Positions 1 through 17,451 of a stretch of DNA of 64,000 nt are shown in pieces. The DNA lies in the NCBI GenBank assembly GCA_019912965.1, contig JAIOHM010000039.1, positions 1 to 64,000 on the forward strand. Direction: 5' to 3'. Positions within the stretch are counted from its first letter, which is position 1. Every line of letters starts with the position of its first letter. Below the pieces are notes generated by a model. The model was given only the letters and a program-made list of their open reading frames with translations. It made no database searches and was not told the DNA's origin. A program made the position numbers and the translations under genes. This DNA comes from Anaerolineae bacterium. Its GTDB lineage: Bacteria > Chloroflexota > Anaerolineae > Aggregatilineales > Phototrophicaceae.

Positions 1-1572
1 TCACTGATTGCTTTTTTCCCGCCCCCGACTGAAGCCCTAACTTTTATAGATATTAACTTGCCCGCCATAAGACAAATATCAACTGAATTATGGGCATCAT
101 GCGATGGCGGCATGGCCGGGGTATTTTCTACCGACGGTGAACATATCGTAATCGCTCAACAAGATCAAACATTGGTTTTGGTCAATTTCAAAACAGGCCA
201 ATCCCGTGTCATTACAGATGCTCAAGGTGTTCCTATTCAAAAGCTGTATGGGTTTGATTTTGACATCTCACCAGATGGAAGAACTTTGGTGTATACGAAA
301 GGAAAAGATTTATGGGTTATAGATATTTTTAGTGGTGAAAATAGGCTGCTCCTTGCTTCTCCAACGGGTAATGAACTTATTAATCCCAATTGGTCGCCCG
401 ATGGTTCACATATTGCTTTTCACTTTGGCTATATTTTTGAAAGTGTAACTGAATTTGGCATTGTCTCGGCTGATGACTCTCGCCTCTCCAGATGGGGAGA
501 TGTATTCGTAAATTACGGTTTCTATGACTGGTCGCCCGATGGAAGATATATTGTTTTTTCGGACATAGATTACATATCCAACCAAGCATCGCTTTACATT
601 GCCAACCTTAACGGGTCTATTGCGCGCACACTCACAAGTGTTTCAAGCACTTTTCCATTATCCCCCCGCTGGTCTCGTAACGGCCAATATATAGCGTTCA
701 ACATGATGTCGCCGAATAACACACAGCCATCAGGCTCATTATGGATAATTAGCCCTGATGGGACAAATCTCAAACAACTTCCTCTATCACCAGCACAACA
801 ATCAGGCGAGTACGTCACACTAGAAGCGTGGTCACCAGACAGTAGAAATCTGCTTGTGGCCGTAGATTTCACTCAGCTATACATCCTGCCGATCAACGGG
901 GATTCACCAACATTTATAGGAAATGCTACCTGCCCGACATGGCAACCGCCGCCCAATCCAAGCAATCTCGTCATCACAATTGTAAGAAATAACTATGAAA
1001 TCTATCTTGACGCTATTTTCGACGCAGCCAACCAGCGATATGTCATCCAGGGCGGTGCATATCTCATCATTCTGGAAATTCAAAATCTCATTGAAAGGAT
1101 GCATAGCACAGGTGATAGATCATTAGCTGTAGATTACTTCATGGAAAACATTGGAGGGGTTGAAGAGTTACGCAACATCGTCGAAACCACTGTGTGTGGA
1201 CAAAAACTAATTTGCAGGGAAAGTTTGCGGTATAAGATTGGCTCTCGTCTAATGGACACATCAGGATTGGGAAATATAGCCTTTGGCTACATAATGACAA
1301 GCGAATTTACCTCTATCCAAGATAGAGAGGACTTCATAGCTAATATGGCTCAACGGATTAATCGAGAAACGAGAGAGGAAGCCTTCACTACATGCCAAAA
1401 TAACCTCATTTGCGTCGCCGAATTGCTCAGACTTGTCGTAGACAACCCTGATGACCAAAGGCAGAGGGAGGTAGGGAGAGCATTAGCACTTGCGGTGCGT
1501 GAAAATAATGACGAAATTGGCATTGAATATGTTGATACACTTGAGGACTTGGCAGATCAACTAGAAATGTAG
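1..1572 (+). CDS. TolB/PD40-type beta-propeller protein, 5'-partial
   Basis: The frame is open to the first base of the window, so the N-terminus is missing; the TTG at 58 is only the first start-like codon. The N-terminal two thirds carry at least five TolB/PD40 blade motifs of the form WSPDG plus hydrophobic strand (ISPDGRTLVY, WSPDGSHIAF, WSPDGRYIVF, WSRNGQYIAF, WSPDSRNLLV), which fold as a beta-propeller. The last ~180 residues are helical with two paired-cysteine motifs (VCGQKLIC, TCQNNLIC). PD40 propellers bind ligands or proteins and are often extracytoplasmic, but no signal is visible because the start is absent. It lies in the cargo part of the integrated element, convergent with a small membrane protein. 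Function unknown. Confidence 0.75.
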   Translation, partial: SLIAFFPPPTEALTFIDINLPAIRQISTELWASCDGGMAGVFSTDGEHIVIAQQDQTLVLVNFKTGQSRVITDAQGVPIQKLYGFDFDISPDGRTLVYTKGKDLWVIDIFSGENRLLLASPTGNELINPNWSPDGSHIAFHFGYIFESVTEFGIVSADDSRLSRWGDVFVNYGFYDWSPDGRYIVFSDIDYISNQASLYIANLNGSIARTLTSVSSTFPLSPRWSRNGQYIAFNMMSPNNTQPSGSLWIISPDGTNLKQLPLSPAQQSGEYVTLEAWSPDSRNLLVAVDFTQLYILPINGDSPTFIGNATCPTWQPPPNPSNLVITIVRNNYEIYLDAIFDAANQRYVIQGGAYLIILEIQNLIERMHSTGDRSLAVDYFMENIGGVEELRNIVETTVCGQKLICRESLRYKIGSRLMDTSGLGNIAFGYIMTSEFTSIQDREDFIANMAQRINRETREEAFTTCQNNLICVAELLRLVVDNPDDQRQREVGRALALAVRENNDEIGIEYVDTLEDLADQLEM

Positions 1573-1592
1573 TTTTTCATTCACTATCGCAT

Positions 1593-2000
1593 TCACCAAT
1601 AATCACTCATAAACAGACTCACGAATAACTGGTCAAATCGAACAATCCAAAGTGCAATCACTATACACAAAATCAGAAGCAACGCAGAAAGGCCATTGCT
1701 CACTATTAGCAACAACTGCGTACTCCACACCATATGCCTATGTTTTAGTAAAACAAGAAATGCCGTCATCGCAAGTAAGCAAACTATCCATAACATCCAA
1801 TAGTAATAAATTATAGCGACAGTAATGACAAATACAGAAAGCAACGTTCCAATCAGCGGCCAATTCGAAAAGTAAATAACGTTGAACAAGGGAATAATAA
1901 TACACAGCAACAACATTCCCATAGACCAAAGGGCAAAGAATAGTCCTACAGCAGAAATACCATATTTGAAGCAAGAATCGTATTTTTTTATAAATTGCAC
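1593..2000 (-). CDS. small four-helix membrane protein
   Basis: A 135-residue protein almost wholly made of hydrophobic segments: about four predicted membrane helices separated by short loops, with a charged N-terminus (MQFIKKYDS) and a few Lys/Arg/His residues in the middle. I recognise no family motif. It is convergent with the propeller gene (20 bp between stops) and its upstream side is an A+T-rich gap of about 200 bp before the primase gene, which would hold both promoters. The A+T-rich coding sequence differs from the chromosome to the right, as expected for cargo of a mobile element. The hydrophobic pattern supports a real gene, but homology was not testable. Confidence 0.5.
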   Translation of the reverse strand: MQFIKKYDSCFKYGISAVGLFFALWSMGMLLLCIIIPLFNVIYFSNWPLIGTLLSVFVITVAIIYYYWMLWIVCLLAMTAFLVLLKHRHMVWSTQLLLIVSNGLSALLLILCIVIALWIVRFDQLFVSLFMSDYW

Positions 2001-2208
2001 ACTGCTTATGAATTATGATGTGCTAAGTCTTTAGAATCGAGTTCCCACCGATGAATTAGTAAAAAATAAAATCGACTAACTAATGGCAAGAAATATCTCA
2101 TACTTAAAATAATGAATTTTTCAAATAATACTAATGTTATTATATCAAAATTAACTGGAATTCGATTTATATCTTAATTTTATCTTTATCAGTTGTTACT
2201 CTAAAGGC

Positions 2209-3183
2209 ATGAATAAGCGGATTGAGCGACGGGAAATGGAAATTGACCGTGACATCCTCGTGGGCTACACCAAAACCTTTATCAACCGCTACAATTGCTA
2301 TCCGCAGCAGCAGGCAGACGGTCACTACTTCAAAGCTCCCCGCCAGTTGACCTTTGAACTGGTTGAGGAACACCTCAAAGGCACTATCACACTTGGCGCA
2401 TATGCCCTCAATGACCAGAACTACGCCAAATGGATTTGTCTGGATGCGGATGATGCTATTGAGTGGTATGGACTCATGGGTATTGCCCGCCAGTTTGCCG
2501 AGCAGCAGATGACCACCTATCTTGAGCCATCGCGCCGAGGTGGACATCTGTGGCTGTTTGTAGACCCGCTCCCCGGCAAAGATGCTCGCCGTTTTGCCAA
2601 ATACCTGTTGGCACAGCACAAACTTGAGGGTTTGGAGGTCTATCCCAAACAAGATGTGTTGAGAACCGGAGTGGGTTCGCTGGTTCGCCTACCACTCGGC
2701 ATTCACCGTAAAGCTGTCCCACCCCGACGATTTACCTTCAAGACGCTAGATGGAGACGATCTCGCACCAACAATACGAGAACAAATGGCAATCCTCGCCC
2801 ATCCTCAGAAGGTTTCCGCAGATTACGTTCGATCCGTGCTTGCGGCTATTCCAGAGTCGAAACAGGTCTTCCCTACTCCCACCTTCAAGCCGGGACAGGT
2901 GATCGATTTAGATCAACCTGTCTCAGAACGGATTAAGGGAGCGATGTCAGTACGGGATTTCGTCGGTCAGTATGTTGACCTTGACCGCTCTAATCGCGGG
3001 TTATGTCCGTTCCACGATGACCATCGCCAAAGTTTCAGTGTGAGCGAGGATGGGAATTACTGGCATTGCTTCGCTGGCTGCGGTGGTGGCTCAATAATAG
3101 ACTTCTACATGAAATTGGAGGCCAAAGACTTTAAGCAGGCGGTTTCAGATTTAGCCCGTCTGTTGTTGCCGCCGCTGTTTTAA
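2209..3183 (+). CDS. AEP-type primase with C-terminal CHC2 zinc finger
   Basis: A 324-residue predicted replication protein. Residues ~15-200 resemble the archaeo-eukaryotic primase (AEP) domain seen in plasmid and TOTE-type primases: the metal-binding DxD is in WICLDADD (D79, D81), followed by SRRGGH (108-113) and LPLGIHRK (His167). Residues ~245-320 are a DnaG-type CHC2 zinc finger with C266, H269, C287 and C291 (CPFHDDHRQSFSV and WHCFAGCGGG). Family knowledge: AEP domains synthesise primers; CHC2 fingers contact template DNA. In DnaG the finger is N-terminal, so this order is unusual. It sits directly before parA and the origin-like region, which supports a role in element replication. MNK is used as start; an internal Met10 is possible. 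Confidence 0.8.
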   Translation: MNKRIERREMEIDRDILVGYTKTFINRYNCYPQQQADGHYFKAPRQLTFELVEEHLKGTITLGAYALNDQNYAKWICLDADDAIEWYGLMGIARQFAEQQMTTYLEPSRRGGHLWLFVDPLPGKDARRFAKYLLAQHKLEGLEVYPKQDVLRTGVGSLVRLPLGIHRKAVPPRRFTFKTLDGDDLAPTIREQMAILAHPQKVSADYVRSVLAAIPESKQVFPTPTFKPGQVIDLDQPVSERIKGAMSVRDFVGQYVDLDRSNRGLCPFHDDHRQSFSVSEDGNYWHCFAGCGGGSIIDFYMKLEAKDFKQAVSDLARLLLPPLF

Positions 3184-3206
3184 CACTGCTCCCCTATTTT
3201 GACCGC

Positions 3207-3235
3207 TTGACTGCATATTTTCGGTAGGCTATTGT
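3207..3235 (+). promoter_or_regulatory. sigma70-like promoter for the parA operon
   Basis: TTGACT (3207-3212), a 17-bp spacer and TATTGT (3230-3235) lie between the primase stop and parA. The -10 box overlaps an in-frame TTG, which rules that codon out as the parA start and supports ATG 3298. Confidence 0.55.
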
Positions 3236-3297
3236 GGGTATACAAGTGTAGAAATTCGCTTAAAAACCCAGTCATTGGCTTTAAGCAAATTGACCTT

Positions 3298-4050
3298 ATG
3301 ATAGTCGCAGTAGCTTCACAAAAAGGCGGTACCGGTAAAACCACGACCTCCATTTCGCTTGCCGCAGGGATAGCCAGAAGCGGAAAAAAGACCCTTTTAG
3401 TGGATACGGACAGTCAAGCGAATTCTTCTAAGGTGTTGTTAGCGAATTACCCCAAAATCCCGGTTACTGAAACCATACATGCAACGATCCTTGAGCGTAA
3501 AGCGCTCCCCATTCATAAAACCTCCGTCCCCAATCTGGATATAGTCCCCTCTCACATTCTGCTTTCCAATACCGATGTTGAACTCACGACTGCTAAAGAT
3601 CATCGTGAGGCACGGCTAAAGATTGAACTGGATAAGGTCAAACAGAATTACGAGCATGTGTTTATTGATTGTCCCCCGGCGCTATCGTGGCTCACGGTGA
3701 ACGCTTTTACGGCAGCCGATCAGGCGCTCATTGTGGTTTCACCGGGTTATTTTGAACTGGATAGCTTGGTGCAAATCAGTAAATCGATTGCCGAGGTCAA
3801 CGAGCTGTTTAATCCCAATCTGAAGCTGCTTGGCTTTTTGTTTACGATGAGTGACACCACCATCAATACACAGACCTCGTTACAACTGCTACGGCAGGCC
3901 TATACTGGAAAAGTGATTGAAACCATCATTCCGCGAAACACAGATATTCGGGATGCTCATATGAACAGGCAGGATATTTTTGCGTTTAATCGAAATGCCA
4001 AGAGTGCCTACGCCTATTTGAAACTGATCCACGAATTATTTCCTGTATGA
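3298..4050 (+). CDS. parA: ParA-family partition ATPase
   Basis: A ParA/Soj/MinD-type P-loop ATPase of 250 residues. The deviant Walker A motif KGGTGKTT is at residues 9-16, VDTDSQAN gives the A' region, and FIDCPPAL the Walker B/switch region. Such proteins bind nucleoid DNA in an ATP-dependent way and move plasmid copies apart with a DNA-binding partner. ATG 3298 is chosen because it starts MIVAVASQKGG, the usual ParA N-terminus, and the 22 upstream in-frame codons overlap a good promoter. The next gene starts inside its stop (ATGA overlap), the usual layout of a parA-partner operon. Its presence means the integrated element behaves, or once behaved, as a low-copy replicon. Confidence 0.92.
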   Translation: MIVAVASQKGGTGKTTTSISLAAGIARSGKKTLLVDTDSQANSSKVLLANYPKIPVTETIHATILERKALPIHKTSVPNLDIVPSHILLSNTDVELTTAKDHREARLKIELDKVKQNYEHVFIDCPPALSWLTVNAFTAADQALIVVSPGYFELDSLVQISKSIAEVNELFNPNLKLLGFLFTMSDTTINTQTSLQLLRQAYTGKVIETIIPRNTDIRDAHMNRQDIFAFNRNAKSAYAYLKLIHELFPV

Positions 4051-4463
4051 ATAAGAAGCATTTAGATACCTCAGCGCTTGCAAATGAGTTAAAGGGAGCT
4101 TCTGCGTTTTTTAAGCAGGCATCAGAGCCAGAAAATACAACCATTCAGAAGCAGCCACCTAGCCCACCTAAAGATACGATTTCGATCCCAGAAATCCCCT
4201 CAAAATCAGTTGCTCAGAATTCCGCTCAAAAAGTTGAGCAACCCTTTGAGCAAGTGAGCAGGAACTTGAGCAGTGAGATTATTGAAAACCTCGCCTTTCG
4301 ATTGCGGAAGGTGTCCAAAAATAAGGTGAATACCGAAGTGCCGATAGAGTGGAAAGAGAAATTGGACGATCTGGCACACGAGTTAGGGGTAGGGAAGTAT
4401 GAACTGCTGATGTACATCATTGGCCTGTTTTTAGGGGAGGTTGAAACCCCGGAAGCCAAATAG
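4047..4463 (+). CDS. putative partition partner of ParA
   Basis: A 138-residue protein overlapping parA by 4 bp (ATGA), so translation is probably coupled. Residues ~1-80 are polar and disordered-looking with Pro/Gln/Ser runs; residues ~90-130 contain a conserved-looking helical part (IEWKEKLDDLAHELGVGKYELLMYI) resembling the helix-turn of small ribbon-helix-helix or ParB-like centromere-binding proteins. No ParB nuclease or KorB motif is visible. Position next to parA is the main argument for a partition role; the fold is an inference. Confidence 0.6.
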   Translation: MNKKHLDTSALANELKGASAFFKQASEPENTTIQKQPPSPPKDTISIPEIPSKSVAQNSAQKVEQPFEQVSRNLSSEIIENLAFRLRKVSKNKVNTEVPIEWKEKLDDLAHELGVGKYELLMYIIGLFLGEVETPEAK

Positions 4464-4470
4464 TCTGCTT

Positions 4471-4830
4471 ATGGAGAAACTGTCCGATCTAGGCCATTTC
4501 AAAGCCCGACAGAACATTATTTTAGAAGGGTTTGACCCCGTATCATCCGGGGGATTCACTCAAGTACCCAATTTCATTCTAAACAACAATAAACTGACCT
4601 CTAATGCAAAGGTGGTCTATGCCAAATTGCTCTCGTATGCATGGCACAATGATCGCGTATTTCCCGGTCAGGAACGTATGGCCGAGGATATAGGTATATC
4701 CCAACAGACGGTTAGCAGGGCGATTATAGAACTTGAAACCATCGGTTACTTAGAAATTCAGAGACGAGGACAGGGATTAACAAACCGATACGTACTGCGT
4801 CATACCGTAAAGCAGAAGATCAAAAAATGA
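4471..4830 (+). CDS. helix-turn-helix Rep-like protein
   Basis: A 119-residue protein with the winged-helix domain typical of plasmid replication initiators and phage replisome organisers: FTQVPNFILNN, then LTSNAKVVYAKLLSYAW, FPGQERMAEDIGISQQTVSRAI and IGYLEIQRRGQG. The recognition helix is ISQQTVSRAIIEL. The gene ends five bases before a set of 22-bp direct repeats, the usual relation between a Rep gene and its iterons. ATG 4471 is preferred; a TTG at 4441 overlaps the preceding gene and is one base from a GGGGAGG sequence. It is short for a full RepA, so it could be only the DNA-binding part or a regulator of replication. Confidence 0.65.
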   Translation: MEKLSDLGHFKARQNIILEGFDPVSSGGFTQVPNFILNNNKLTSNAKVVYAKLLSYAWHNDRVFPGQERMAEDIGISQQTVSRAIIELETIGYLEIQRRGQGLTNRYVLRHTVKQKIKK

Positions 4831-4835
4831 AGCTG

Positions 4836-4900
4836 TTACTCACCCGTGAGTATCTGGTTACTCATCCATAGGTATCTAGTTATCCACCCATGAGTATCAG
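4836..4900 (+). repeat. 22-bp direct repeats (iterons)
   Basis: Two full units (4846-4867 and 4868-4889) plus a half unit on each side (4836-4845 and 4890-4900). Shared elements are GTATCT(G/A)GTTA at the unit centre and TCAC/TCATCC/TCCACCC at the end. The third unit contains TTATCCACC, one mismatch from a DnaA box. Spacing equals two helical turns, as in iteron-type origins. Confidence 0.6.
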
Positions 4901-5000
4901 AACGAGGCTATTTTGAGGCTAACCAATAATATGAAGTATAAATATACACAGAATAATAATACAAAGGTAGGACGGATTTAAAAATCTCCTGTGGATAACT
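4901..5000. other. A+T-rich stretch with perfect DnaA box (origin-like)
   Basis: Directly after the iterons comes an A+T-rich tract and then TGTGGATAA (4990-4998), which is the exact reverse complement of the DnaA box TTATCCACA. Rep-like gene, iterons, A+T-rich unwinding candidate and DnaA box together are the normal components of a theta-type plasmid origin. Confidence 0.55.
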
Positions 5001-5306
5001 TTATGGTTGTGATAGCTCATTCAGGTTATTCCGAGTTGAACTGGTGTTCATTCTTTTCACAGGGTTTTCACGAGGATATTTTGTACTCGAACACATTTTG
5101 TGGGTAGGGGAGAACCCCAACATTTACCTCGTCATAGAGTCCAGCAAAGAGAATGCCGCCCCGCAAATACCAGTGGTTCTTCTCATGCCCCTCGTTCTGG
5201 CTAGGCTTGCTTTAGCCGATGAATCGGGCTAAACCTGCACCCTAGACGGCGAAGAGGGACAATCGGCAAACCACACCCCTTGTCGGCCTTGCCTCGTCGC
5301 GTTGCG

Positions 5307-5512
5307 CCTTTGTCAAGCCCGACTACAGCCATTGTCGCACCCCAAAAACCCCTTTTCACTTCGTGAAACCCTGACGACGCTACCGCTTGTCAGGGACGGG
5401 GCTTTTGGGGTGTACCCTCATCGCTGCGCTCTTCGGCGAACGCTTGCGCGCACTGGGCTGAAGCCCAGGCACGCAAACTCAATGGCTGTAGTCGGCCTCC
5501 GGCTCGACAAGG
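5307..5512. ncRNA. multi-branched structured element, candidate ncRNA or DNA structure
   Basis: A nested set of inverted repeats with no credible ORF. The outer arms are 5307-5334 and 5480-5512 (a perfect 16-bp core, CGACTACAGCCATTG against CAATGGCTGTAGTCG, plus a second paired block TTGTC/CGACAA). Inside are 5338-5352 with 5398-5412 (CACCCC...CCCC against GGGG...GGGGTG), which itself encloses hairpins TTTCAC/GTGAAA (5354-5368) and CCCTGAC/GTCAGGG (5369-5395). A further hairpin CTGGGC-TGAA-GCCCAG is at 5453-5468. The layout resembles a folded RNA with a closing stem and several branches, but a single-strand origin, oriT or cruciform is equally possible. Strand unknown. Confidence 0.4.
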
Positions 5513-5602
5513 GGCGGCGGAACGCGCCGCGCGGTATTGCGGGGCGGGGCGGGCACACTCCCAATGTGTCTACACGCTGACAGCCAACAGCGAAACGGCA
5601 AA

Positions 5603-5839
5603 ATGCAGATCGAGGAGTGTGACGGCGAATATTGGGGGGTGGTGTGCGAGACCTATCCAACAGTGGCCTGCCCTGCCCTTTGTCAGACGTCCAGCAGTGG
5701 GGCAGAACAGGCTTTTATGAGACTGGCAGATGCAGTCGCATCTACCAGCCTGCGGCAGAGCCGCCCGCGATGCGGCTGCTATTCAAGTAGTTGTTATCCG
5801 TACCGATCAGTAGCTCGTGCCTTCTCATTGTATCGGTAG
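5603..5839 (+). CDS. doubtful 78-residue ORF, HicB-like pattern
   Basis: The ORF begins MQIEECDGEYWGVVCETYP and contains SGAEQAFMRLADAVAS, a pattern that loosely recalls HicB-type small antitoxin folds (strand, DG-turn, strands, helix). It has no clear ribosome site, overlaps several hairpins of the structured region (AGATGC/GCATCT at 5727-5742; TACCGAT/ATCGGTA at 5801-5838) and degenerates into Cys/Arg/Ser at its end. It may be a chance frame in G+C-rich DNA. Confidence 0.2.
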   Translation: MQIEECDGEYWGVVCETYPTVACPALCQTSSSGAEQAFMRLADAVASTSLRQSRPRCGCYSSSCYPYRSVARAFSLYR

Positions 5840-5848
5840 ACAAGGGCA

Positions 5849-5911
5849 GTCAAGGCCAAGCAAGTTGCCCGCTTTTTCAGATGGGGAAGTGGTGGCGGGA
5901 CAAGCCTTGAC
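5849..5911. repeat. inverted repeat / long hairpin
   Basis: GTCAAGGC (5849-5856) pairs with GCCTTGAC (5904-5911), and inside it GCCCGC (5867-5872) pairs with GCGGG (5895-5899). It closes the palindrome-rich block that starts near 5300 and precedes the small-ORF cluster. Confidence 0.45.
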
Positions 5912-6010
5912 AGCCCCGTGATCTCGCAGTGAACCCACTGAAGCAGGCATGGGCACGAGCTACTTGTGGCTCATGTGCCGGAAAGGAGGTGAAGGCGAGA
6001 GCCAAAATGT

Positions 6011-6166
6011 ATGAACAATATCCAAAAGACCAATCCAAGCGCACCAGCACGACCGCGCCGCAGTTTCGCGGATGATCTGGGCGTGATGCGAAAGCATTTG
6101 GCGGCATTGTATGCCATCTTGCGGAAATGGGAACAGGCAATGGAGCAGCGGAAAAACCAAGCCTAA
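6011..6166 (+). CDS. small basic protein, 51 residues
   Basis: A short frame too small for routine gene calling: begins MNNIQKTNPSAPARPRRSF and continues as a basic amphipathic helix ending EQAMEQRKNQA. A strong ribosome site AAAGGAGGTG lies at 5982-5991, but 20 bp from the ATG, which is long; a stop in frame at 5990 bars a start closer to it. The next small gene has the same AAAGGAGGTG sequence. Function unknown; it may be an element-encoded small regulator or simply a leader peptide. Confidence 0.35.
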   Translation: MNNIQKTNPSAPARPRRSFADDLGVMRKHLAALYAILRKWEQAMEQRKNQA

Positions 6167-6195
6167 ATCCCATTGAGCGAAAGGAGGTGAAAATC

Positions 6196-6345
6196 GTGAA
6201 ATTTAGCGACCGGGAAGCAGCCTTGTTTCGAGACATAGCTGACCGATGTACCATGATCTATCAGCTTGAGGAGATCATTTCAGTGCTTGAGATGATGAAC
6301 CGCGATGCGGTACAGGAACTTGAACGCATCGGACAAACTGAGTAG
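6196..6345 (+). CDS. small acidic helical protein, 49 residues
   Basis: GTG start at 6196 with AAGGAGGT seven bases upstream. The protein (VKFSDREAALFRDIADR then LEEIISVLEMMNRDAVQELERIGQTE) is almost all charged amphipathic helix, suggesting a dimerising coiled coil. An in-frame extension to 6127 exists but the ribosome site decides for 6196. A 9-bp terminator hairpin follows the stop. It is the second of three short ORFs with strong ribosome sites between the origin-like region and the first cargo gene. No family recognised. Confidence 0.55.
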   Translation: MKFSDREAALFRDIADRCTMIYQLEEIISVLEMMNRDAVQELERIGQTE

Positions 6346-6350
6346 TTGAG

Positions 6351-6390
6351 ACTGAGGGAGTGACTAGCCATCATTCCCTCAGTTTTCTAT
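6351..6390 (+). terminator. intrinsic terminator
   Basis: ACTGAGGGA (6351-6359) pairs with TCCCTCAGT (6375-6383), followed by TTTCTAT. It ends the 6196-6345 transcript. Confidence 0.6.
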
Positions 6391-6416
6391 TGTAACACAC
6401 CGAAGAAAGGAGGCTT

Positions 6417-6596: not shown

Positions 6597-6608
6597 CCAT
6601 CCAGACTT

Positions 6609-6640: not shown

Positions 6641-6743
6641 GCTCGCAACTTAACGGAGTTGGCTGTTTGCGGGCGCGGCGCACGAGCGACGGTGTGCTAT
6701 TTCAGGGATTTTCGCCGCGCCTTCTAAAGGAGATTGTATTGAT

Positions 6744-8701: not shown

Positions 8702-9859
8702 ATGCCCAAAAAACAGCTTCTAGCTTTATTTGTGTGTAGCCTTTCGCCTTGGACAGTTGCCTATGCTCTATTTTATTCGCTTCCGATATTAGCCACAAAA
8801 CTGGGGGCAAGTTCAACACAAACGGGGGCTTATTTAGCATCTTGTTTTGCGTCATTGGCTGGGGGTTCCTTGACGGCTGGTTGGCTGGGGGATAGGTTCA
8901 GATGCCGCAAATCCTTACTCATTTTTGTGGGTATGGTGAGTATCCCCATCACCTTGCTCATCAATCAAACTGCTGACCTGATCCAATTAATGTTGGTAAC
9001 TGTACCGATTTGGTTCTCCCTTGGCACATCTTTTGCCCTTCTAGAAGCATTGGTTGGACTCTCTATTACCTCGTCTGAACGAGGGCATTTCTTCAGCATT
9101 ATTTCAATCTCGGTTTCGTTAGGTGCAATTCTTGCTGGGATTACAGGGACTATCGTAGGCCATTTCGGTGTTCTACTGCTTTTTCCAGTAATCGGCTTAT
9201 TTTGGGTTATTCAACCATTAGCTGGCTTGTTTCTTACCGAAGCGATTGTCGCAGATGTGCCAACGCCATCTTCTCCCTTACCGATGAAAAATCATGCAAC
9301 CCTTAGTCATGTATTTCACTTGATCTTGGTCGCTAACTTTCTGTACTGGATTGCCTCATCTGTGGCCGGAATTGGCAGACCCCTAGTGATGCATTCGCTT
9401 AATTTTGGGATTGCTCCCATATTGAGTGCTTCGGCATTTGGGGGGCTAGTAACACTTCCCTTACGATTGGTGTTTGGTCGTGTTGCAGATCGTATCAGCC
9501 ATAAACTGGCAATCCCTGCATTCTATTCTTTAGCCATATTGAGTCTGCTTATCCTCACATTTTCTCTTTCCGCATGGCAATTTTGGCTGGCGACGACCCT
9601 TGCATTTATTGCAGACACCAATCGCAGTGTTATCGGTTCTGCGTGGATTTCGAAGTTGACACCAAGAGCAGCATTGGGAAAGCGCCTAGCTTGGTACAGT
9701 GCTACGAGTTGGGTAGGCCAGATCATTGGCTTCGCGTGTGCAGGCTATGCCTTTCAAGGGCTTGGAACAATCACATTTGTAATCACGGCATTACTTCCAT
9801 TGATTGCCATTATTGTTCTTTTGCCAGTCATCCGCTTGGAACAGCCTCTCCTTAACTAA
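8702..9859 (+). CDS. MFS transporter, 12 TM
   Basis: 385 residues with about twelve membrane helices. The loop between helices 2 and 3 has the MFS motif A (GWLGDRFRCRKSLLI), and a related motif appears in the second half (GRVADRISHK). Proton-driven efflux of a small molecule is the usual role of this size class (drug:H+ antiporter-like), but the substrate cannot be read from the sequence. AAAGG lies six bases before the ATG. It is divergent from an HTH/TPR regulator, the classic pairing for an inducible exporter. As element cargo it could give the host resistance to a compound or export a peptide signal for that regulator. Confidence 0.8.
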   Translation: MPKKQLLALFVCSLSPWTVAYALFYSLPILATKLGASSTQTGAYLASCFASLAGGSLTAGWLGDRFRCRKSLLIFVGMVSIPITLLINQTADLIQLMLVTVPIWFSLGTSFALLEALVGLSITSSERGHFFSIISISVSLGAILAGITGTIVGHFGVLLLFPVIGLFWVIQPLAGLFLTEAIVADVPTPSSPLPMKNHATLSHVFHLILVANFLYWIASSVAGIGRPLVMHSLNFGIAPILSASAFGGLVTLPLRLVFGRVADRISHKLAIPAFYSLAILSLLILTFSLSAWQFWLATTLAFIADTNRSVIGSAWISKLTPRAALGKRLAWYSATSWVGQIIGFACAGYAFQGLGTITFVITALLPLIAIIVLLPVIRLEQPLLN

Positions 9860-10521: not shown

Positions 10522-10563
10522 GAGGCTGGGTGAACGGTGATGTTCATCCAGCCTCTTGTGTTT
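10522..10563 (+). terminator. terminator or attenuator before the transfer operon
   Basis: GAGGCTGGGTGAAC (10522-10535) pairs over 14 bp (one G-T) with GTTCATCCAGCCTC (10542-10555), followed by TTGTGTTT. The next gene's AGGAGG lies immediately after, so partial read-through would set the level of the ATPase operon. Confidence 0.65.
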
Positions 10564-10576
10564 AGGAGGAGCAAGT

Positions 10577-11611
10577 ATGTCAAGGATGGAGCGTGTGAGT
10601 TTCTGGATCGTTGGGATCGTTACCCTCCCCTTCTGGTTGAGTGCGTGGGGAGTGCTGTTTGTGTGCCGCAATCTGGTGGTGTGGCATTGGCCGCAGGGAT
10701 TAGGTATCGGGTGGCAACGGGCAGCATTGGTTAGTTGGTTGACGGTCGTCCCTGTTGGAATAGCGGTGGCATGGTGGCTGGGGATGGACTGGTTCATGTT
10801 TACTTTGCTGGGTGTACAGGAAGTTGTATTGCAGGTTATGGCAGCAGCTTTGGGCGTTGGGAGTTACTACTACCTGTACTTTGTCAAACCCTTTCGGTGT
10901 GGGCAATGGATTGTATTTCTGGGAGAACAGCATCGTTTGTGGCATCACATTCGAGAGGCAACCGTGATTGGGAAGCTGGAACTTCGCATCTGGTGGTGGA
11001 AAACCAAGCCGGAGTTGAAACGACAAGGACAGCACTACAGCAAATTGATGCAGGAAGGAGATTGGCAAACGATGGCGGATGAAATGGGCGAAGGGATTGC
11101 AGGTGCAGCAGTGGCGCTTATTCTCGTGGTGATGGGGGTGTTTTTAATGGTGTTCATTGGCGGACTGGTGCTGATGGGTATCTTGCTGCGGAATATGTTT
11201 GGCAGCACCCAATCACCATTGAAGCGGGGCAAAACATTGCCAAAATCGGCGGATATGCGCTGGTTTCACGCCCCCAGTGACGGCAACTGGATCGAAGCCT
11301 ACGATTATTGGCTGTATCAGATTGAGAACAGCACGGGGCTGAGTTTGACGACCTCACCACTGCGGCTGTACAGCGGAGCATTGCTGGTCTCATTAGTGCC
11401 AGCCGTTGGGATTGGACTGGTATGGGCAGTGTTTGCGCCAGCGACGGTTGGGAGTGGCTTGCTGGGACTGCTAATCGTGGGCGGTGTGCTTGGCGCAATT
11501 ACAGGGCGAAAACTAAGCCAACCTGCGGGGAACTGGTTCACCTTTGATGAGGATGAACCCGCCACCTCCAAGCATGTAGTGACACTCGGCGAGTGGATGG
11601 GCGACGAGTAA
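10577..11611 (+). CDS. membrane protein of the transfer module
   Basis: 344 residues from ATG 10577 (AGGAGGA seven bases upstream; the earlier TTG at 10556 lies in the terminator tail). Hydrophobic segments at residues ~10-35, ~50-75, ~80-105, ~195-220 and a pair at ~275-320 give five to six membrane helices, with soluble parts between. The last codon overlaps the start of the ATPase gene (TAATG), so the two are translationally coupled. This matches membrane anchor subunits paired with VirD4/TraG- or HerA-like ATPases in integrative elements. No sequence family recognised; the role is inferred from coupling. Confidence 0.65.
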   Translation: MSRMERVSFWIVGIVTLPFWLSAWGVLFVCRNLVVWHWPQGLGIGWQRAALVSWLTVVPVGIAVAWWLGMDWFMFTLLGVQEVVLQVMAAALGVGSYYYLYFVKPFRCGQWIVFLGEQHRLWHHIREATVIGKLELRIWWWKTKPELKRQGQHYSKLMQEGDWQTMADEMGEGIAGAAVALILVVMGVFLMVFIGGLVLMGILLRNMFGSTQSPLKRGKTLPKSADMRWFHAPSDGNWIEAYDYWLYQIENSTGLSLTTSPLRLYSGALLVSLVPAVGIGLVWAVFAPATVGSGLLGLLIVGGVLGAITGRKLSQPAGNWFTFDEDEPATSKHVVTLGEWMGDE

Positions 11612-13020
11612 TGCAACTGGGACTGACGATTCCCGACCTGCTGCGTCACCTCTATGTAATAGGCGGCACAGGGGTTGGGAAAAGCCGACTGCTCGAATCA
11701 CTGGTACTGGCTTTAGTGCAGCAGGGTTATGGCGTTGCCGTAATTGATCCGCATGGCGAACTGTACCACAACCTGCTGGCACGGCTGGCGCTTCTGGGGA
11801 AACAGCTCTGGAAGCGGGTTGTCCTCATCAACCCGCTTCAGACGGAATTCATCGTGAGCATGAATCCGTTGGAACTGCTGTCGGGCGAGATGGCTGAGCG
11901 GCGGGCACTGTTTCTGGCAGGAGTCATTAGTAATTTATTTGCAATCGATGATTTAGTTGCCGCAAGAATGTCCAGAGTGATGTACCACGCTTTCTGGCTG
12001 TTGATCGAATCCAAACTGACCTTGTTGGAGTTTGCGCCGCTACTCACGGATGCAGGTTTTCGCAGCGATTTGCTGGTGAACCTCCCGGCTACCCACAAAC
12101 TCTGGCGCTATTGGATACACGAATTTCCCCATGAGCATGATCGTTTGGTGGCTGAGTGGACGCAGAGCAGCTTGAACAAAGTGGATGAGCTTGTGACCGA
12201 TCCAGATATTGCGCTGATGTTCGGGCAGCAGCACAGCACGCTGGATTTTGAGCAAATGATGGATACTGGGAAGATTGTGCTGGTGAATTTATCCAAAGGG
12301 CAATTGGTTTCTAAGAATAGTTATTTGCTTGGCGGCTTCATTTTTGCCCAGTTTCAGTTAGCCGCCTTCACCCGCAGCCGCCGTCCTTATTCTAAACACA
12401 CGCCATTTATGATTGTTGCCGACGAATTCCAGAATTTTGTTACAGAATCTATCCACGAACTGCTGGCTGAAAGTCGCAAATATGGGTTGGGACTCGTGCT
12501 GGCACACCAATTTTATGCTCAGTTGCGCGATCAGCCCAAATTACAACAAGCGGTACTCAACACCGTCGGTCATCTCGCTCTTTTTCGCATTGGAGCGAGT
12601 GATGCTGATCTATTTGTGCGCGATATGTTCCAACCAAAGATTGACCGGATCAAGGATACCCGCAAGCGGGTGCTGCCGACAGGCATCCAGTGGTTTCCGT
12701 TCGTTTATGAGGATGAACCCGTGTACCGCCCCCTTGAGGAGACATGGGAAATGGAGGTACGCCGCCTGACCAGCCTCCCCGCACGGGAATATTGGTTCAA
12801 ACAGCGGGGCAGTCAACATGCGGTGAAACTGCGGACACCAGATATGCCCGATGTGGTACGCACCAAGCAGCGTGAACACGCCATTGCCCAGATGACAGCA
12901 GTTGCGGCTCAGTGGGGACGCAGCCGAGCGGAAGTGGAGCGGGAGATTGCCCAACGCCACGCCGCGTTGTTCGGGCGTGGCACAGCCGGAAGTAGCTCAC
13001 CAGAAGATATATATGAGTAA
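11611..13020 (+). CDS. VirD4/TraG/FtsK-type DNA-transfer ATPase
   Basis: 469 residues from ATG 11611, in the TAATG overlap with the membrane-protein stop. Walker A is GGTGVGKS (residues 18-25), directly after a short N-terminus; DPHGELYHNLL follows, typical for HerA/TraD/VirD4-like coupling proteins; Walker B is FMIVADEFQNF near residue 265, then SRKYGLGLVLAHQ, the conserved Q-bearing segment of this class. It lacks its own membrane helices, which the upstream gene supplies. Such hexameric ATPases pump DNA or nucleoprotein through a membrane channel during conjugation. A C-terminal extension of ~150 residues carries the Arg-rich helical tail. No VirB4 or other type IV secretion gene is visible in the window. 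Confidence 0.85.
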   Translation: MQLGLTIPDLLRHLYVIGGTGVGKSRLLESLVLALVQQGYGVAVIDPHGELYHNLLARLALLGKQLWKRVVLINPLQTEFIVSMNPLELLSGEMAERRALFLAGVISNLFAIDDLVAARMSRVMYHAFWLLIESKLTLLEFAPLLTDAGFRSDLLVNLPATHKLWRYWIHEFPHEHDRLVAEWTQSSLNKVDELVTDPDIALMFGQQHSTLDFEQMMDTGKIVLVNLSKGQLVSKNSYLLGGFIFAQFQLAAFTRSRRPYSKHTPFMIVADEFQNFVTESIHELLAESRKYGLGLVLAHQFYAQLRDQPKLQQAVLNTVGHLALFRIGASDADLFVRDMFQPKIDRIKDTRKRVLPTGIQWFPFVYEDEPVYRPLEETWEMEVRRLTSLPAREYWFKQRGSQHAVKLRTPDMPDVVRTKQREHAIAQMTAVAAQWGRSRAEVEREIAQRHAALFGRGTAGSSSPEDIYE

Positions 13021-13071
13021 GTTTGCATCTGCTATAGTGACCTTATGCAGCTACAAGGAACAGAACCTAAG

Positions 13072-13959
13072 ATGAACCAGCGATTACCGCATTTCAAACC
13101 CGCTGAACATCCCCCTGCTCTGCAACTCACCCAACGAGATGGACGGCTGATGGAGACGATTTATCACTATGAAGGGGTGTTGTCTGCCGACCAGATCGAA
13201 CGGCTGTTTTTCACCAGTCACAGGCGGATGCAGGCACGCCTCAGCACGCTGTATCACAACCGCTATGTAGACCGCACCAATCTTCAGGAACAGAGTGCTT
13301 TGGGTTTTGTGGCCTACTTTCTGGCTGAGAAAGGGATTGCCTATCTGTGTGGCTTATGGGGAATATCCCCCAAAGAACTCAACCCCCGTGAGAAAGGGGA
13401 GCGGATGTCGCTTGTTCGGCATGATGTCCGGCTCAATGAGGTACGGATGGCGGTGATGGATGCCCTTCGTCAGTTGCCACAGAGCGAACTGAAAGTTTGG
13501 GTCAATAGCCGCAGCTTTTACGCTGATAACGACACAATCTGGTACTTGGATGGCAAGCAACGCAAACACAAACGCGCCATCCGACCGGATGCTTACTTTT
13601 ATGTGGTCAGTCCGGGGGTTGAGACGGCTCGCCACAGCCATTTCTTGCTCGAACTGGACATGCGAACGGAACACAATGCGCGGTTTGTGGATGAGAAAAT
13701 CCGTCCCGGCTTGGCTTATTTTGAGAGCGAAGCCTACCGAAACCGCTTTGGAGTCAATGCCGGACGCTATCTGGTGGTGACGACGGGGGAAACCCGCCTG
13801 AAAAATATGAAACAACAGGCTGAGACCGTTGGTAAGGCCGCCGAACGCTTTTACTTCACCACCTTTGAAGCCGCTACAGCAAATGGTGCTTTTTTCACCC
13901 AACCGATCTGGTGGCGACCGACCCATGACACGCCTGTGGCGTTGTTCAGCGGTGTTTGA
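13072..13959 (+). CDS. replication-relaxation family protein
   Basis: 295 residues from ATG 13072 (AAGGAA about eleven bases upstream; ATG 13045 in the same frame is possible but lies next to a TATAGT -10-like box and has no ribosome site). The N-terminal part is a winged helix (LTQRDGRLMETIYHYEGVLSADQI then SHRRMQARLSTLYHNRYVDR), followed by a conserved acidic region (RPDAYFYV, HFLLELDMRTE), the pattern of the Pfam Replic_Relax family. These proteins occur beside TraD-like ATPases in Gram-positive and Chloroflexi integrative elements and have been suggested to act in DNA processing at the transfer origin. It follows the ATPase by ~50 bp and is probably in the same operon. Confidence 0.75.
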   Translation: MNQRLPHFKPAEHPPALQLTQRDGRLMETIYHYEGVLSADQIERLFFTSHRRMQARLSTLYHNRYVDRTNLQEQSALGFVAYFLAEKGIAYLCGLWGISPKELNPREKGERMSLVRHDVRLNEVRMAVMDALRQLPQSELKVWVNSRSFYADNDTIWYLDGKQRKHKRAIRPDAYFYVVSPGVETARHSHFLLELDMRTEHNARFVDEKIRPGLAYFESEAYRNRFGVNAGRYLVVTTGETRLKNMKQQAETVGKAAERFYFTTFEAATANGAFFTQPIWWRPTHDTPVALFSGV

Positions 13960-14185
13960 GACGCATTGAAGATGAGGGAGGTGGTTTGCTATGCTGAGGA
14001 TACCGTGTGAGGAGGTGGCTCTGGTTCCCCGGTCAGCAAGCGGTGTACATCAGTCTGGGGTGAGCCTGCTCCCAGAGCATGTCAGCCACCCAAGATGTGG
14101 CAGGCACATCGCAACCAACCTTCCTCGGAAGAGGGGTATCTGGCATGTGAGCTACCCTTACACGGGAAATAGAATTTTGAACAGT

Positions 14186-14593
14186 ATGGCATGGTACAAC
14201 AAAGAATCGGTAACACGATTGGACGAAATCCCTGTCGAGGGCGTGTTCTTTCTGGACAGCGATCTCGCTGCCAAGAAGCTACCACTGTTTCACCTGCTGG
14301 GGATGAAATGCCCGATGATTGCCTTTCCCTCTGGTGAAGCCTGTCCGATTGCATGGGAGCGTGAGAACAGTCCATACGTGTATCTGTTTCCGGGTATGGA
14401 TTTGCCGCTCTTTGACACCTATCCCCACGCATTACAGCGGGCACTGGAACAAGCCGAGGATGCATGGTTCACGGTGTTTGGAAACGGTGAAAACCAACTC
14501 GAACTGTGGTCGCATCTGGGCGAAGAAGTGTTTTTTGTGACCTATGACAATGTGCAGAGGCGTATGGTTGATCTTGAAATCTATGCAGCCTGA
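14186..14593 (+). CDS. hypothetical protein of the element
   Basis: The frame is open from 13991, but the first 65 residues look like non-coding DNA (Arg/His/Ser/Gly-rich, two other short frames compete). From ATG 14186 the product is 135 residues starting MAWYNKESVTRLDEIPVEG, with a mixed alpha/beta pattern and a C-terminal part WSHLGEEVFFVTYDNVQRRMVDLEIYAA. No family recognised. It is soluble and sits between the replication-relaxation gene and two small membrane peptides. The region 13960-14185 holds several ribosome-site-like GGAGGT sequences and may carry one or two minimal peptides. Confidence 0.45.
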   Translation: MAWYNKESVTRLDEIPVEGVFFLDSDLAAKKLPLFHLLGMKCPMIAFPSGEACPIAWERENSPYVYLFPGMDLPLFDTYPHALQRALEQAEDAWFTVFGNGENQLELWSHLGEEVFFVTYDNVQRRMVDLEIYAA

Positions 14594-14629
14594 GAGGGGA
14601 TTGAACAGATGTGCTATGCTGTAGGAGCT

Positions 14630-14824
14630 ATGGCAAAAAAGTTGAAACCAGATGATCTTGCCCGAATTGCGGAAAAGCTCATGGAGTTAGCGAATCTGAC
14701 GATTGCGGCCTTGGGCATTGGACAAATCCTGAGCGGTCACGCCAATCTTTTAGCGGCAATCGCCGGAATTGTGGTGTTTCTTGGGTTGTATTACAGCGCG
14801 TTTCAAGTTCTGAAAGGGAGGTGA
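14630..14824 (+). CDS. small two-TM membrane protein
   Basis: 64 residues (71 if ATG 14609 with an AGAGGGGA site is used). MAKKLKPDDLARIAEKLMEL forms an amphipathic helix, followed by two hydrophobic segments (NLTIAALGIGQIL and ANLLAAIAGIVVFLGLYYSAF). It is six bases from the next, even smaller membrane peptide, and both lie at the end of the transfer-like operon. Small bitopic proteins are common in conjugation modules. Function unknown. Confidence 0.6.
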   Translation: MAKKLKPDDLARIAEKLMELANLTIAALGIGQILSGHANLLAAIAGIVVFLGLYYSAFQVLKGR

Positions 14825-14830
14825 GTCGAT

Positions 14831-14926
14831 ATGAATATCGGACTACTGGTTTTGTTGGGCGGAGTATTGCTGGCAGGGGCGTTGATTGCCTATATCGCCA
14901 TCCGCGATAGTGAACACCAGAAATAA
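14831..14926 (+). CDS. single-TM micropeptide, 31 residues
   Basis: ATG 14831 with GGGAGGTGA nine bases upstream. The peptide is one membrane helix (MNIGLLVLLGGVLLAGALI) followed by a polar tail IRDSEHQK. Ribosome site, spacing from the preceding gene, and clean transmembrane composition make it credible in spite of its size. It may be a small subunit of the membrane transfer complex. Confidence 0.55.
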   Translation: MNIGLLVLLGGVLLAGALIAYIAIRDSEHQK

Positions 14927-15024
14927 CCCATAGCGTTTAAGCCTATTTTTCGATACTACAGGGCTAGTTGGCTCACATCGGGTTGCTTCATTTCCACACT
15001 TATATTCGCCGTTCTTAGGATTTC

Positions 15025-15042
15025 CGAGGCTGGTTAGCCTCG
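15025..15042. other. hairpin in the 14,927-15,144 gap
   Basis: CGAGGCT (15025-15031) and AGCCTCG (15036-15042) with GGTT loop; no T-run, so a terminator only in a loose sense. The same gap has ACGTTAT (15072-15078)/ATAACGT (15103-15109), an inverted repeat upstream of the next small gene that could be an operator. Nothing else was found in this 218-bp gap. Confidence 0.4.
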
Positions 15043-15144
15043 AAACAGGTACACACAATCTACATTGTGCGACGTTATGTGTAGATAATTACATGCTAAT
15101 AAATAACGTGATTGAGCTTATAGTGGTGGGATGGGGGAGCGATT

Positions 15145-15306
15145 ATGAAAGAAGATCAGGATAAGACTGAGGAGCAGGCTTCATCTACGATCTCGACTAA
15201 CCTGTTGGTGGCGACACGATTGCTTGTTGCATGGTTGAGTGGGAAAGGTACTATGCAGAATGGACAGAAGCAACCTCAGTCGAATCGTCGTGTGAAAAAG
15301 AAATGA
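15145..15306 (+). CDS. small polar protein, 53 residues
   Basis: ATG 15145 with GGGGGAG seven bases upstream. The product begins MKEDQDKTEEQASSTISTN, has a short hydrophobic patch (LLVATRLLVAWLSG) and ends in a basic tail (QSNRRVKKK). It lies between the transfer module and the excisionase/integrase pair. No family recognised. A membrane-associated or regulatory peptide is possible. Confidence 0.45.
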   Translation: MKEDQDKTEEQASSTISTNLLVATRLLVAWLSGKGTMQNGQKQPQSNRRVKKK

Positions 15307-15379
15307 GATTTATCTGGTTGGCATTCTATGTTTCTCAGTTTCAGGAAAGATGTTAGCCTTTTATCACCTAACTTGACTT

Positions 15380-15399
15380 CGTAGGATGTTTGTCCTACG
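15380..15399. promoter_or_regulatory. inverted repeat, candidate operator of the excisionase-integrase unit
   Basis: CGTAGGA (15380-15386) and TCCTACG (15393-15399) around a 6-bp centre, 20 bp before the excisionase start. A perfect 7+7 dyad just upstream of a DNA-binding protein gene suggests autoregulation. Confidence 0.45.
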
Positions 15400-15418
15400 A
15401 TAAAGGATGTTACAGACG

Positions 15419-15649
15419 ATGAATGATTTAGATGATCTCATTTCCTTGTCGGAGGCTGCCAAGCAGGCAGGGGTTGCACGGAATACCATGCACCTTGCTG
15501 CAAAAGGTGGACACATAAAGGCTACTCGGATAGGGCGACACTGGTATATCTACGCAAGTGACATTGAACGATGGAAACGAGAAAACTATCGTCCAGATAT
15601 GGCAAAAATTCGCCGCTCCCGCAAGAGAAGCGATCAATCTGATTATTGA
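15419..15649 (+). CDS. MerR/excisionase-type HTH protein
   Basis: 76 residues from ATG 15419 (AAAGGA at suitable spacing; ATG 15407 would be too near it). MNDLDDLISLSEAAKQAGVARNTMHLAAKGGHIKATRIGRHWYIYASDIERW is the HTH_17/excisionase winged-helix pattern: ISLSEAA, turn, helix with basic residues, and the IGRHW-Y wing. The C-terminus is Arg/Lys-rich. Proteins of this class act as recombination directionality factors or local repressors. Position just upstream of the serine recombinase, 38 bp apart, supports control of excision. Whether it is the true directionality factor cannot be read from the sequence. Confidence 0.75.
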   Translation: MNDLDDLISLSEAAKQAGVARNTMHLAAKGGHIKATRIGRHWYIYASDIERWKRENYRPDMAKIRRSRKRSDQSDY

Positions 15650-15687
15650 CCCGAATTGAGCGTCCGAGCTTATGGAGGATATTCCTC

Positions 15688-17451
15688 ATGGCTAACCCAG
15701 AATTCTTCAAGGCTAATTTTGATCTTCTCGCAGTAGATGGCTGCATTGGTGACCCGAATGGTGAATATGCCTATGGCTATTTGCGAGTGTCAGGCGACGA
15801 TCAGGCTGATGAAGGACGATCAGGATTACCGAGACAAATTGCACATCTGCATGAGGCTGGATGTAAACATGGATACAAGATTCCATGGGAATTTGTCTTT
15901 GCTGATGATTATACAGGGTTTGAATTTGAGGGACGCCCGCAGTTGAAAGAGTTGAGACGGGAGTTGCATAGTCCAAATCGTCGGGCAAAAGCGGTCGTGA
16001 TGGAGCATCTTGATCGGCTCTCGCGCAATGCAGACTGGCATCAGGGCTTTTTGCTTGATGAGATGAATCGACTTGGCGTTGCTTCCGTTTTTTGGAAGGA
16101 GTTTTACAGCCGGATCGAACGAGTTGTGTTAGGGGCAATCGCACAGGAGGGGATGGAAGCCGAGAAACAGCGGATGATGGAGGGGAATCTTCACAAAGCG
16201 CGTTCAGGGCGAGTAACCGCTCGAGTCCCTGCTTACGGATATAGGCTGGTAGATGCAAACGGCAATGAAAGTCCGTTAGCTAAAAAGGAAACATATTACG
16301 GCATTTATGAGGAAGAGGCAATTATCATCAGGCTTATTTTCCGTCGAATCATAGCTGGTGATGCTATGCGAAAGATTGCACTTGACCTAGAGATGTCTGG
16401 GATTAAGCCGCCCAAGCAATATAAGCATTGGGAACAGACCCAAATCCGGCTATTTATTAAAAGTGAGGTCTACAAAGGTGAGTTGTATGCTCATCGTTGG
16501 TTGCATACCGTTCTACAGAAACCATCTAAAGATGGATTTTCAACTCGACCAGTGAAATGCAAAATTGAACGTCCGCGTGAGGAGTGGATTCTTATTCCTG
16601 TTCCCGCGATTATTTCTTCTGAGGAATGGGATGCCGCTAATCGAATGTTGGAGCAAAATCAAAAAATGGCTCGACGCAATGCGAAAGAGCCGTATTTGCT
16701 GACTGGCCTTGTGCGCTGTGCTCATTGTGGATACACATACGTTGGTACGAGCAAAAGGTATGGAAAAAATGGGGAGCTTCGCAAAAATCCATATCGTGGC
16801 TATCGTTGCCCCTACACTGGTATCCGGCCAAAATACGTTCCTACATCGGATGAGTGCAAGAATAGTCATGTTCCCTGTACTGTTTTGGATACTGCGGTTT
16901 GGAATATCGTGTGTCAGGCTTTACTTGAACCTAAGATGCTTATTGATGCACTGGATGGAGATGCGACAAGTGAACATAATCGCCAGCTTGAAGCACAAAT
17001 TGCTTTCTTAGAACGTGAGCTTTCGGGTAAAGACAAAGATGACGAAAAACTTTTACGTGCATATATGGCTGGGGCATTCGATGAACATGAATACGCCGCC
17101 CGCCGTCGGCTTTTGAAAGAAGAAGCAACTCGGCTCAACGAAGAGCTTGTACGACTGCGAGGAGATGTGCTATCCCCGCAGCAACTAGCGGAGCGCAAAA
17201 CTGCGATTACAACAATGTCAGCACAATTACGTGCTCAAAATATTCCTATTGATCCGCCTTTTGATCTCAAACAGCGGATCATAAAGTTGGTTGTCGATGA
17301 AATCACATTGGATGTGGGTAGTGGTTGGTTGCGAGTTGACGGCGCGATACGCGGTACATTTCCGATTGAGACTACCCCTGCGGACATGGGTTTAATGCAC
17401 CGATCAGCAAGAAATTCGCGGGAAAGGTCAGGCTGCCTTTGGCGCGGCTGA
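15688..17451 (+). CDS. large serine recombinase (integrase)
   Basis: 587 residues from ATG 15688 (ATGGAGGA eight bases upstream; the TTG at 15646 overlaps the preceding stop). The N-terminal resolvase domain carries [10 protein letters not shown] with catalytic Ser35, then [17 protein letters not shown] and [13 protein letters not shown]. The Recombinase domain spans ~180-310, a zinc ribbon (CAHCG ... YRCPYTG) follows at ~350, and a coiled coil lies near 440-500. The protein inserts and, with a directionality factor, excises the element at an attP/attB pair. Its last ~25 codons lie beyond the element boundary, inside chromosomal yifB sequence read on the opposite strand, so the C-terminus must differ in the excised circle. 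Confidence 0.93.
17366..17400. other. attachment site junction (attR) in yifB
   Basis: Reading the minus strand, intact yifB homology runs to ALNPCP (codon ends near 17381) and then diverges, with a stop at 17372-17374, where family members continue NPCPCGY. The crossover therefore lies about 17,375-17,385. The serine recombinase gene covers this point on the plus strand. The matching attL and the 3' part of yifB must lie left of the window. Confidence 0.7.

Follow-up and report, generated by a model that had tools for sequence, protein, structure and literature searches.

The available extracts of the literature describe several systems to which the element treated here can be compared. Integrative and mobilizable elements (IMEs) with a VirD4 coupling ATPase and a MobC relaxase are known: PF13814 (Replic_Relax) is listed as a MobC relaxase family by Coluzzi et al. 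2017 (PMC5357655), and MobC is also encoded, according to a review, by those few mobilizable plasmids that are known to have a VirD4 of their own (PMC5704250). Magnesium-chelatase (comM/yifB) genes are a frequent serine-recombinase target, at 12.4% of predicted site-specific integrases (PMC10083194), and the sr1WO prophages hit the same gene (PMC9203015); disruption of comM/yifB has been read as an element's block on the transformation that would delete it (PMC4774983). Growth by tandem insertion or fusion at one site is described for the ssrA islands of Dehalococcoides (PMC3146451) and for Tn6164 of Clostridium difficile (PMC3485107). Our subject is an element that begins in a 64,000-nucleotide stretch of an Anaerolineae bacterium (GCA_019912965.1), hereafter the window, which is bases 1-64000 of contig C207 (JAIOHM010000039.1; 118,920 bp). 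We put at about 0.87 the probability that it is of the integrative and mobilizable type, recombined into the attB of yifB after the residues NPCP, with a plasmid-like backbone and a tandem far end. What appears to be new is that far end, a tandem of three modules each with the same end repeat and att arm, one of them with a divergent complete yifB.

The original prediction, made from the window, proposed a plasmid-like unit at positions 1-17451 inserted in yifB, and asked whether the missing yifB 3′ end lies to the left of position 1. Since position 1 is a contig end and no end of the element, this check was made in the remaining genome (draft assembly G000: 7.76 Mb, 237 contigs, 98.64% complete, 5.17% estimated contamination). 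A search with the YifB C-terminal part matched a piece at C159:41487-41954, within an orphan frame at C159:41448-41972, and also a complete yifB on the same contig. Both ends of the element and its site are directly visible. The window holds the recombinase end, with the boundary at 17382-17383 and not at 17451, the last 68 bases of the recombinase frame being antisense yifB DNA; the opposite end is on C159, where everything left of 41497 is element and everything to the right is chromosome (citrate synthase and others, named by eye). From end to end the element runs through C159:1-41496 in reverse, an unread gap and window 1-17383, which makes 58.9 kb or more besides the gap; the proposed unit stood as a plasmid-like integrated element, but it is larger and more composite than the window shows.

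The gene is cut between NPCP and CG. The attB in yifB is CCCATGT-CC-TTGCGG, and the attP, GACTACCCATGC-CC-GCAGGGGTAGTC, is near-palindromic: 16 of 18 positions around the CC centre pair as an inverted repeat between the C159 element arm (GACTACCCATGC) and that of the window, a fit that none of 20,000 shuffles equalled. The orphan 3′ part and the palindromic arms bear out insertion at this site by a large serine recombinase, as had been proposed. Rejoining the yifB flanks at the CC centre (93 nt) directly gives a single open frame, in frame, so that restoration of yifB upon excision, also proposed, is supported as far as sequence goes. Nor is yifB naturally a gene of 359 codons in relatives, for in one search it was unbroken in 8 of 11 genomes, as open frames of 514-552 codons, and in pieces in the other 3. 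Both host halves are closest, among nine relatives, to G003 and G015 (83.5/83.2% and 78.3/79.1%). The suggested comparison with an empty yifB was provided by G012, of the same genus, where the gene is unbroken and is flanked 5′ by homologues of three C207 genes and 3′ by homologues of two C159 genes.

Several points weigh against this interpretation. No sequence joins C207 to C159, the gap between them being unread, and the assembly is a draft with 5.17% estimated contamination. Only in G012, of the four relatives with flanks read, were both flanks matched; in G008 it is the 5′ side of yifB that has C159 homologues, and the flanks in G003 and G015 gave no match. The Replic_Relax protein (13045-13959) matched none of 72,556 plasmid records at E <= 0.01, so the MobC label depends on one Pfam model and one PHROG. 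A search of the assembly for VirB4 (PF03135), which the prediction had also failed to see, gave no match at E <= 0.001 (the control was positive in 1 of 14 genomes, and the gap in the element is unread), and the element is therefore at best mobilizable. Lastly, we infer the circle, replication, excision, transfer and module addition.

The gene content of the window arm, as read directly from it, is as follows.

1-1572, + strand: cargo, WD40/PD40-like protein, cut by the contig end
2209-3183, + strand: archaeo-eukaryotic primase (AEP, TOTE-type) with DnaG zinc ribbon (PF22548 5e-21, PF01807 7e-18)
3232-4050, + strand: ParA ATPase (PF13614 1e-45)
4047-4463, + strand: small ParA partner, ParB-like by position only; overlaps parA, no family match
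4441-4830, + strand: Rep-like winged helix (HTH_36 2e-12; PHROGs "replication initiation protein" 5e-14)
4835-4998, no strand: origin candidate, with 22-bp iterons at 4835-4898 and DnaA boxes at 4880 (one mismatch) and 4990 (exact)
8702-9859, + strand: cargo, major facilitator superfamily transporter (PF07690 2e-27)
10556-11611, + strand: probable membrane protein before the VirD4-like gene, by position; no family match
11593-13020, + strand: VirD4/TrwB-like coupling ATPase (PF10412 8e-10)
13045-13959, + strand: Replic_Relax protein, MobC-type relaxase candidate (PF13814 1e-17; PHROGs "replication initiation by nicking" 2e-9)
15407-15649, + strand: excisionase/directionality-factor-like protein (HTH_17 2e-10; PHROGs "excisionase" 2e-8)
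15646-17451, + strand: large serine recombinase (family match; recombinase alignment), its frame running through the att site into yifB
17370-17395, no strand: attR: element arm GACTACCCCTGC followed by the crossover dinucleotide GG at 17382-17383 (CC as read on the yifB strand) and by the yifB half
17384-18517, - strand: yifB/comM 5′ part, cut after NPCP and continued by the 3′ part from C159:41497

The genes that had been named are present by Pfam and PHROGs matches (ParA, primase, Rep-like winged helix, VirD4-like ATPase, Replic_Relax, excisionase-like protein and serine recombinase), and the iterons are there as well. For the proposed parA partner, the overlapping gene is there, whereas its partnership is by position; a protein similar to it by eye is present in a second related element of the host, on contig C94. 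The plasmid-type initiator, origin and partition genes are recognised by similarity. The iterons amount to 2.9 copies of 22 bp, and the exact DnaA box at 4990 is TTATCCACA; the whole window holds 23 boxes with at most one mismatch against 13.3 expected, a number reached in 1 of 100 shuffles, and a single DnaA box is therefore weak evidence. On the transfer side, the VirD4-like ATPase is 24.7-31.1% identical, among the matches listed, to plasmid type IV secretion DNA-binding or DNA transfer proteins, and the protein at 10556-11611, to judge by eye from its position, is perhaps its membrane partner.

The element has the properties of an IME in that it carries its own site-specific recombinase with att sites at both ends, by sequence, and shows no complete secretion system of its own in the VirB4 search given above. 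It had been held that no relaxase of a known class is visible and that the transfer arrangement is uncommon. The observation and core inference of the original prediction were right, and this claim is not supported: PF13814 is listed as a relaxase family (PMC5357655), and VirD4 with a MobC-type protein and no secretion system is, from the extracts at hand, a known arrangement (PMC5704250, PMC5357655). Like those IMEs, the element has a site-specific recombinase, its own coupling ATPase and PF13814 protein, and no secretion system was found; unlike them, it is at least 58.9 kb, comes from the Anaerolineae, and has an AEP primase, ParA, iterons and a composite far end. The interest rests in that composite end and in the spare target gene within it.

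In the mechanism we propose, the large serine recombinase would join attP to attB in yifB, cutting the gene after NPCP, and the neighbouring excisionase-like protein would reverse integration and restore yifB. Once circular, the element would be replicated and held by its primase, Rep-like protein, iterons and ParA, and the Replic_Relax protein and VirD4-like ATPase would pass it through the secretion system of another element; with its replication and partition genes the circle may survive until that transfer can take place. A side observation is that the recombinase frame (15646-17451) runs across its own att site into yifB, and hence its last residues should differ between the circle and the integrated form.

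The tandem modules of the far end are seen directly, and several modules of the island carry defence genes. C159 has three copies of a 1.1-kb end repeat with an end gene, each finishing in the same att arm (C159:24418-25505, 31259-32301 and 40447-41511; 79-86% identical), with att centres that begin at 25490, 32288 and 41496, and all four junctions have CC at the centre. Module 1, the backbone, which is closed by the first repeat, contains type I restriction genes, a TIR protein and an AAA_13 protein with PADLOC matches to the candidate system PDC-S06; module 2 contains NACHT/HEAT and a broken end gene; and module 3 contains a complete foreign yifB, a PocR-type kinase and a response regulator. 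No recombinase was seen among the frames of modules 2 and 3. The end gene has no Pfam or NCBIfam match; its model (mean predicted local distance difference test score, pLDDT, 66.5) is all-helical with long helices and had no PDB fold match at E <= 0.001, and on our reading of the model the product may be a membrane protein. Separately, a Radical SAM protein with PADLOC viperin matches (7e-15) is encoded downstream of the TIR and NTPase genes (G000:C159:22843-24357).

It is reasonably likely that the tandem arose by ordinary accretion, in which a resident element took in related ones at its att sites and two of the newcomers later shed their recombinase and transfer genes, remaining as cis-mobilizable remnants. 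The end repeats differ by 14-21% and are therefore no fresh duplicates, and the closer to the att site, the more alike they are, with 44-82% identity over the first 180 columns and 93-97% over columns 900-1079. There are precedents in the extracts available. The ssrA islands of Dehalococcoides are from the same phylum, use a serine recombinase and form tandem islands at one gene, 15 of them without an integration module; unlike the element described here, they target the tmRNA gene, have two recombinases (DsiA and DsiB) and, as far as the extract states, have a ParBc-domain protein in the integration module yet no replication of their own (PMC3146451). In Tn6164, a pair of serine-recombinase elements have fused at a single site and are separated by an att-like joint that copies the target site; its target and cargo are different, and its excision as a whole element was shown by polymerase chain reaction (PMC3485107). 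A point against accretion is that G000 was the only genome in which a contig with two end genes was seen.

Accretion also predicts that the internal junctions, J1 and J2, should consist of two attP arms or contain a yifB half, and here the evidence is less favourable. J1 and J2 have a common 12-bp right half (TTAGGGTTATTA), followed by unrelated DNA. The right halves were scored by weight matrix, each arm or half being left out in turn; the sets have few members, their centres were placed by eye, and the attP arm of G059 was shifted one base by hand, the anchor having taken in one of its bases. Over 16 nt their log-odds were +2.5 and -0.2, between those of the six attP arms (+9.7 to +19.3) and the nine yifB halves (-10.5 to -18.2); over 12 nt both gave +0.4 (one attP arm itself gave -0.3), and over 20 nt +2.2 and -5.0. 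On these small sets the right halves fit neither class. The candidates that they are attP arms, or remnants of yifB 3′ halves (there are short matches, such as GYYNDVKRA), were both left undecided by the matrix and are not claimed, and a weak match beside J2 (PIDFTDISGQK) was treated as chance.

An unlikely alternative is a cassette-like system, in which recombinase-less modules with a shared end repeat would be captured and lost singly at J-type sites in the fashion of an integron. It would suit three modules that have a common end gene and att arm and different cargo, as well as the CC centre of all junctions and the shared right half of J1 and J2 before unrelated DNA. Serine integrases, however, normally recombine attP with attB only, there is a single array in a single draft genome, and one of its three end genes is broken. 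An integron proper has the tyrosine integrase IntI and attC cassettes, and the recombinase here is of the large serine type (attC sites were not searched for). It is improbable, finally, that the J junctions are false joins made by the assembler at a short exact repeat, as the ~50 bp identical around the att core between copies and a draft of 237 contigs might allow, since elsewhere identity between the repeats is 79-86% and the modules are not the same, the outer junctions are independently supported, and homologous yifB insertions are present in other assemblies.

The spare yifB of module 3 is intact, with 511 residues from its likely start and both the Walker A motif and NPCPCGY; its start is 200 bp away from J2, and 7.4 kb separate its other end from the outer end of the element. 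It is 75% and 69% identical to the two host halves and groups with G002 and G052, apart from the host copy (tree support 92/94, below the starred level; 2 of the 12 inner branches are starred). The ratio of nonsynonymous to synonymous substitution was discarded, synonymous sites being saturated in all three comparisons. Eleven genomes with a broken yifB were taken from the recombinase, end-gene and yifB searches (G000, G002, G024, G039, G059, G096, G101, G113, G117, G134 and G136). Three have a complete second yifB inside the element, 69-85% identical to the broken copy: G000, G096 (C1:355882-357549, site ~64) and G117 (C148:19198-20751, site ~309). The carrier elements in G096 and G117 have other recombinases than that of the window, and in both the spare adjoins the non-recombinase end (the two ends of the G117 element are on unjoined contigs). 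G134 has a complete yifB on a 23.5-kb contig with no element in view. No second yifB was found in 6 of the 11, an absence that is not firm because some of the assemblies are fragmented or incomplete (G002: 1030 contigs, 88%), and in G113 only the yifB 3′ part was found. Nine genomes searched with unbroken yifB (G003, G008, G012, G014, G015, G044, G052, G139 and G133) gave one copy each. As the genomes were not drawn at random, no rate of spare carriage follows.

Unlike the serine recombinases described at comM/yifB and the sr1WO prophages, as far as the extracts go (PMC10083194, PMC9203015), the carrier here is plasmid-like, is no prophage and has an intact yifB. An element that breaks yifB yet brings an intact foreign copy cuts against the transformation-block reading (PMC4774983, in extract), and no report of such elements carrying a spare target gene or yifB was among the open-licence PMC papers listed by the searches, one of which was too broad to carry much weight. 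We offer only tentatively, and with some doubt, the idea that yifB-breaking serine-recombinase elements carry a divergent replacement as dedicated cargo, by which the host would keep the function and the next element would get a fresh target; the spare may also be there by chance. If true, it would explain pile-ups such as the 92 kb of G059 (C1:108665-201000). Cuts near residues 64, 309 and 359 divide yifB there; of the three recombinases that lie next to them, one belongs to the window family and two to another, and yifB N-terminal sequence occurs three times. One element end supplies residues 1-59 of yifB, 77% identical to the first part of the host gene, and this replacement 5′ end is joined in frame to the remainder of the host yifB via 32 extra residues; the hybrid gene was presumably whole before the two other insertions. 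Repeated pile-ups of this kind offer a natural record of the growth of serine-recombinase islands, among them of a defence island that gains one module after another. In G136 (C117:16001-82924 and C22:85967), yifB is divided into four pieces that follow one another, and next to the cuts lie three recombinases, which belong to two families.

The recombinase of the window (E <= 1e-60) and the end gene (E <= 1e-5) each matched in 9 of 151 genomes, the host included. The recombinase also matched 75 plasmid and 51 phage records, all below 60% identity and the 10 listed of each below 30%, and two viral contigs; the end gene matched no viral contig. A collection scan of contigs gave no locus with the single recombinase as query and 17 with a recombinase alignment, several on the same contigs as genomes above (G002, G024, G059, G136 and G134); 16 are from metagenome-assembled genomes of Anaerolineae or other Chloroflexi and one from Rhodoblastus (24% identity). 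The recombinase abuts a yifB piece in 11 of the 17. Six use the NPCP site (L065, L066, L067, L068, L071 and L074) and four lie near yifB residue 200 (L072, L073, L079 and L080), L069 being less clear; L070 adjoins an aldo-keto-reductase-like gene, at the same place as in G012, L075 is cut by a contig end, and within the stretch examined there is no yifB at L076, L077, L078 and L081.

In G002 and G059 the recombinase is next to the yifB 3′ part and not the 5′ part, which places an element at the same site in the opposite direction. G024 has a whole 40-kb homologous element in yifB on one contig (C4): yifB 3′ part at 55472-55939, end gene at 56039-56983, recombinase at 94196-95908 and yifB 5′ part at 95871-96992. 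Its attP palindrome holds at 14 of 18 positions, a score reached by 1 of 20,000 shuffles. To judge by eye from its translated frames, it encodes a MobA/MobL-type relaxase (59048-60436) and a VirD4-like protein (60749-62215); set against the Replic_Relax protein of the window, this suggests that one integration family may carry different mobilization modules. The second recombinase family, that of G059 element A, matched in 28 of 151 genomes (E <= 1e-100), and yifB lay within the flank in 7 of 30 loci examined and not in 23, so that yifB is one target among others for it.

Two further observations concern related recombinases. A pair of recombinases of the family stands beside yifB both in Candidatus Desulfolinea nitratireducens (L068:1067-4629) and in Anaerolineales BB38 (L071:5227-8818). 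The genes are adjacent in both loci and look more like a two-gene operon than like accretion, and by our own comparison they may resemble ccrA/ccrB pairs. The second related element of the host genome (G000:C94:4494-57780) has the same end gene at one end and, by similarity or by eye, primase, AAA, helix-turn-helix, RadC, Replic_Relax and VirD4-like genes; it has a different serine recombinase, whose frame ends in a tRNA-Asp gene (C94:57726-57799).

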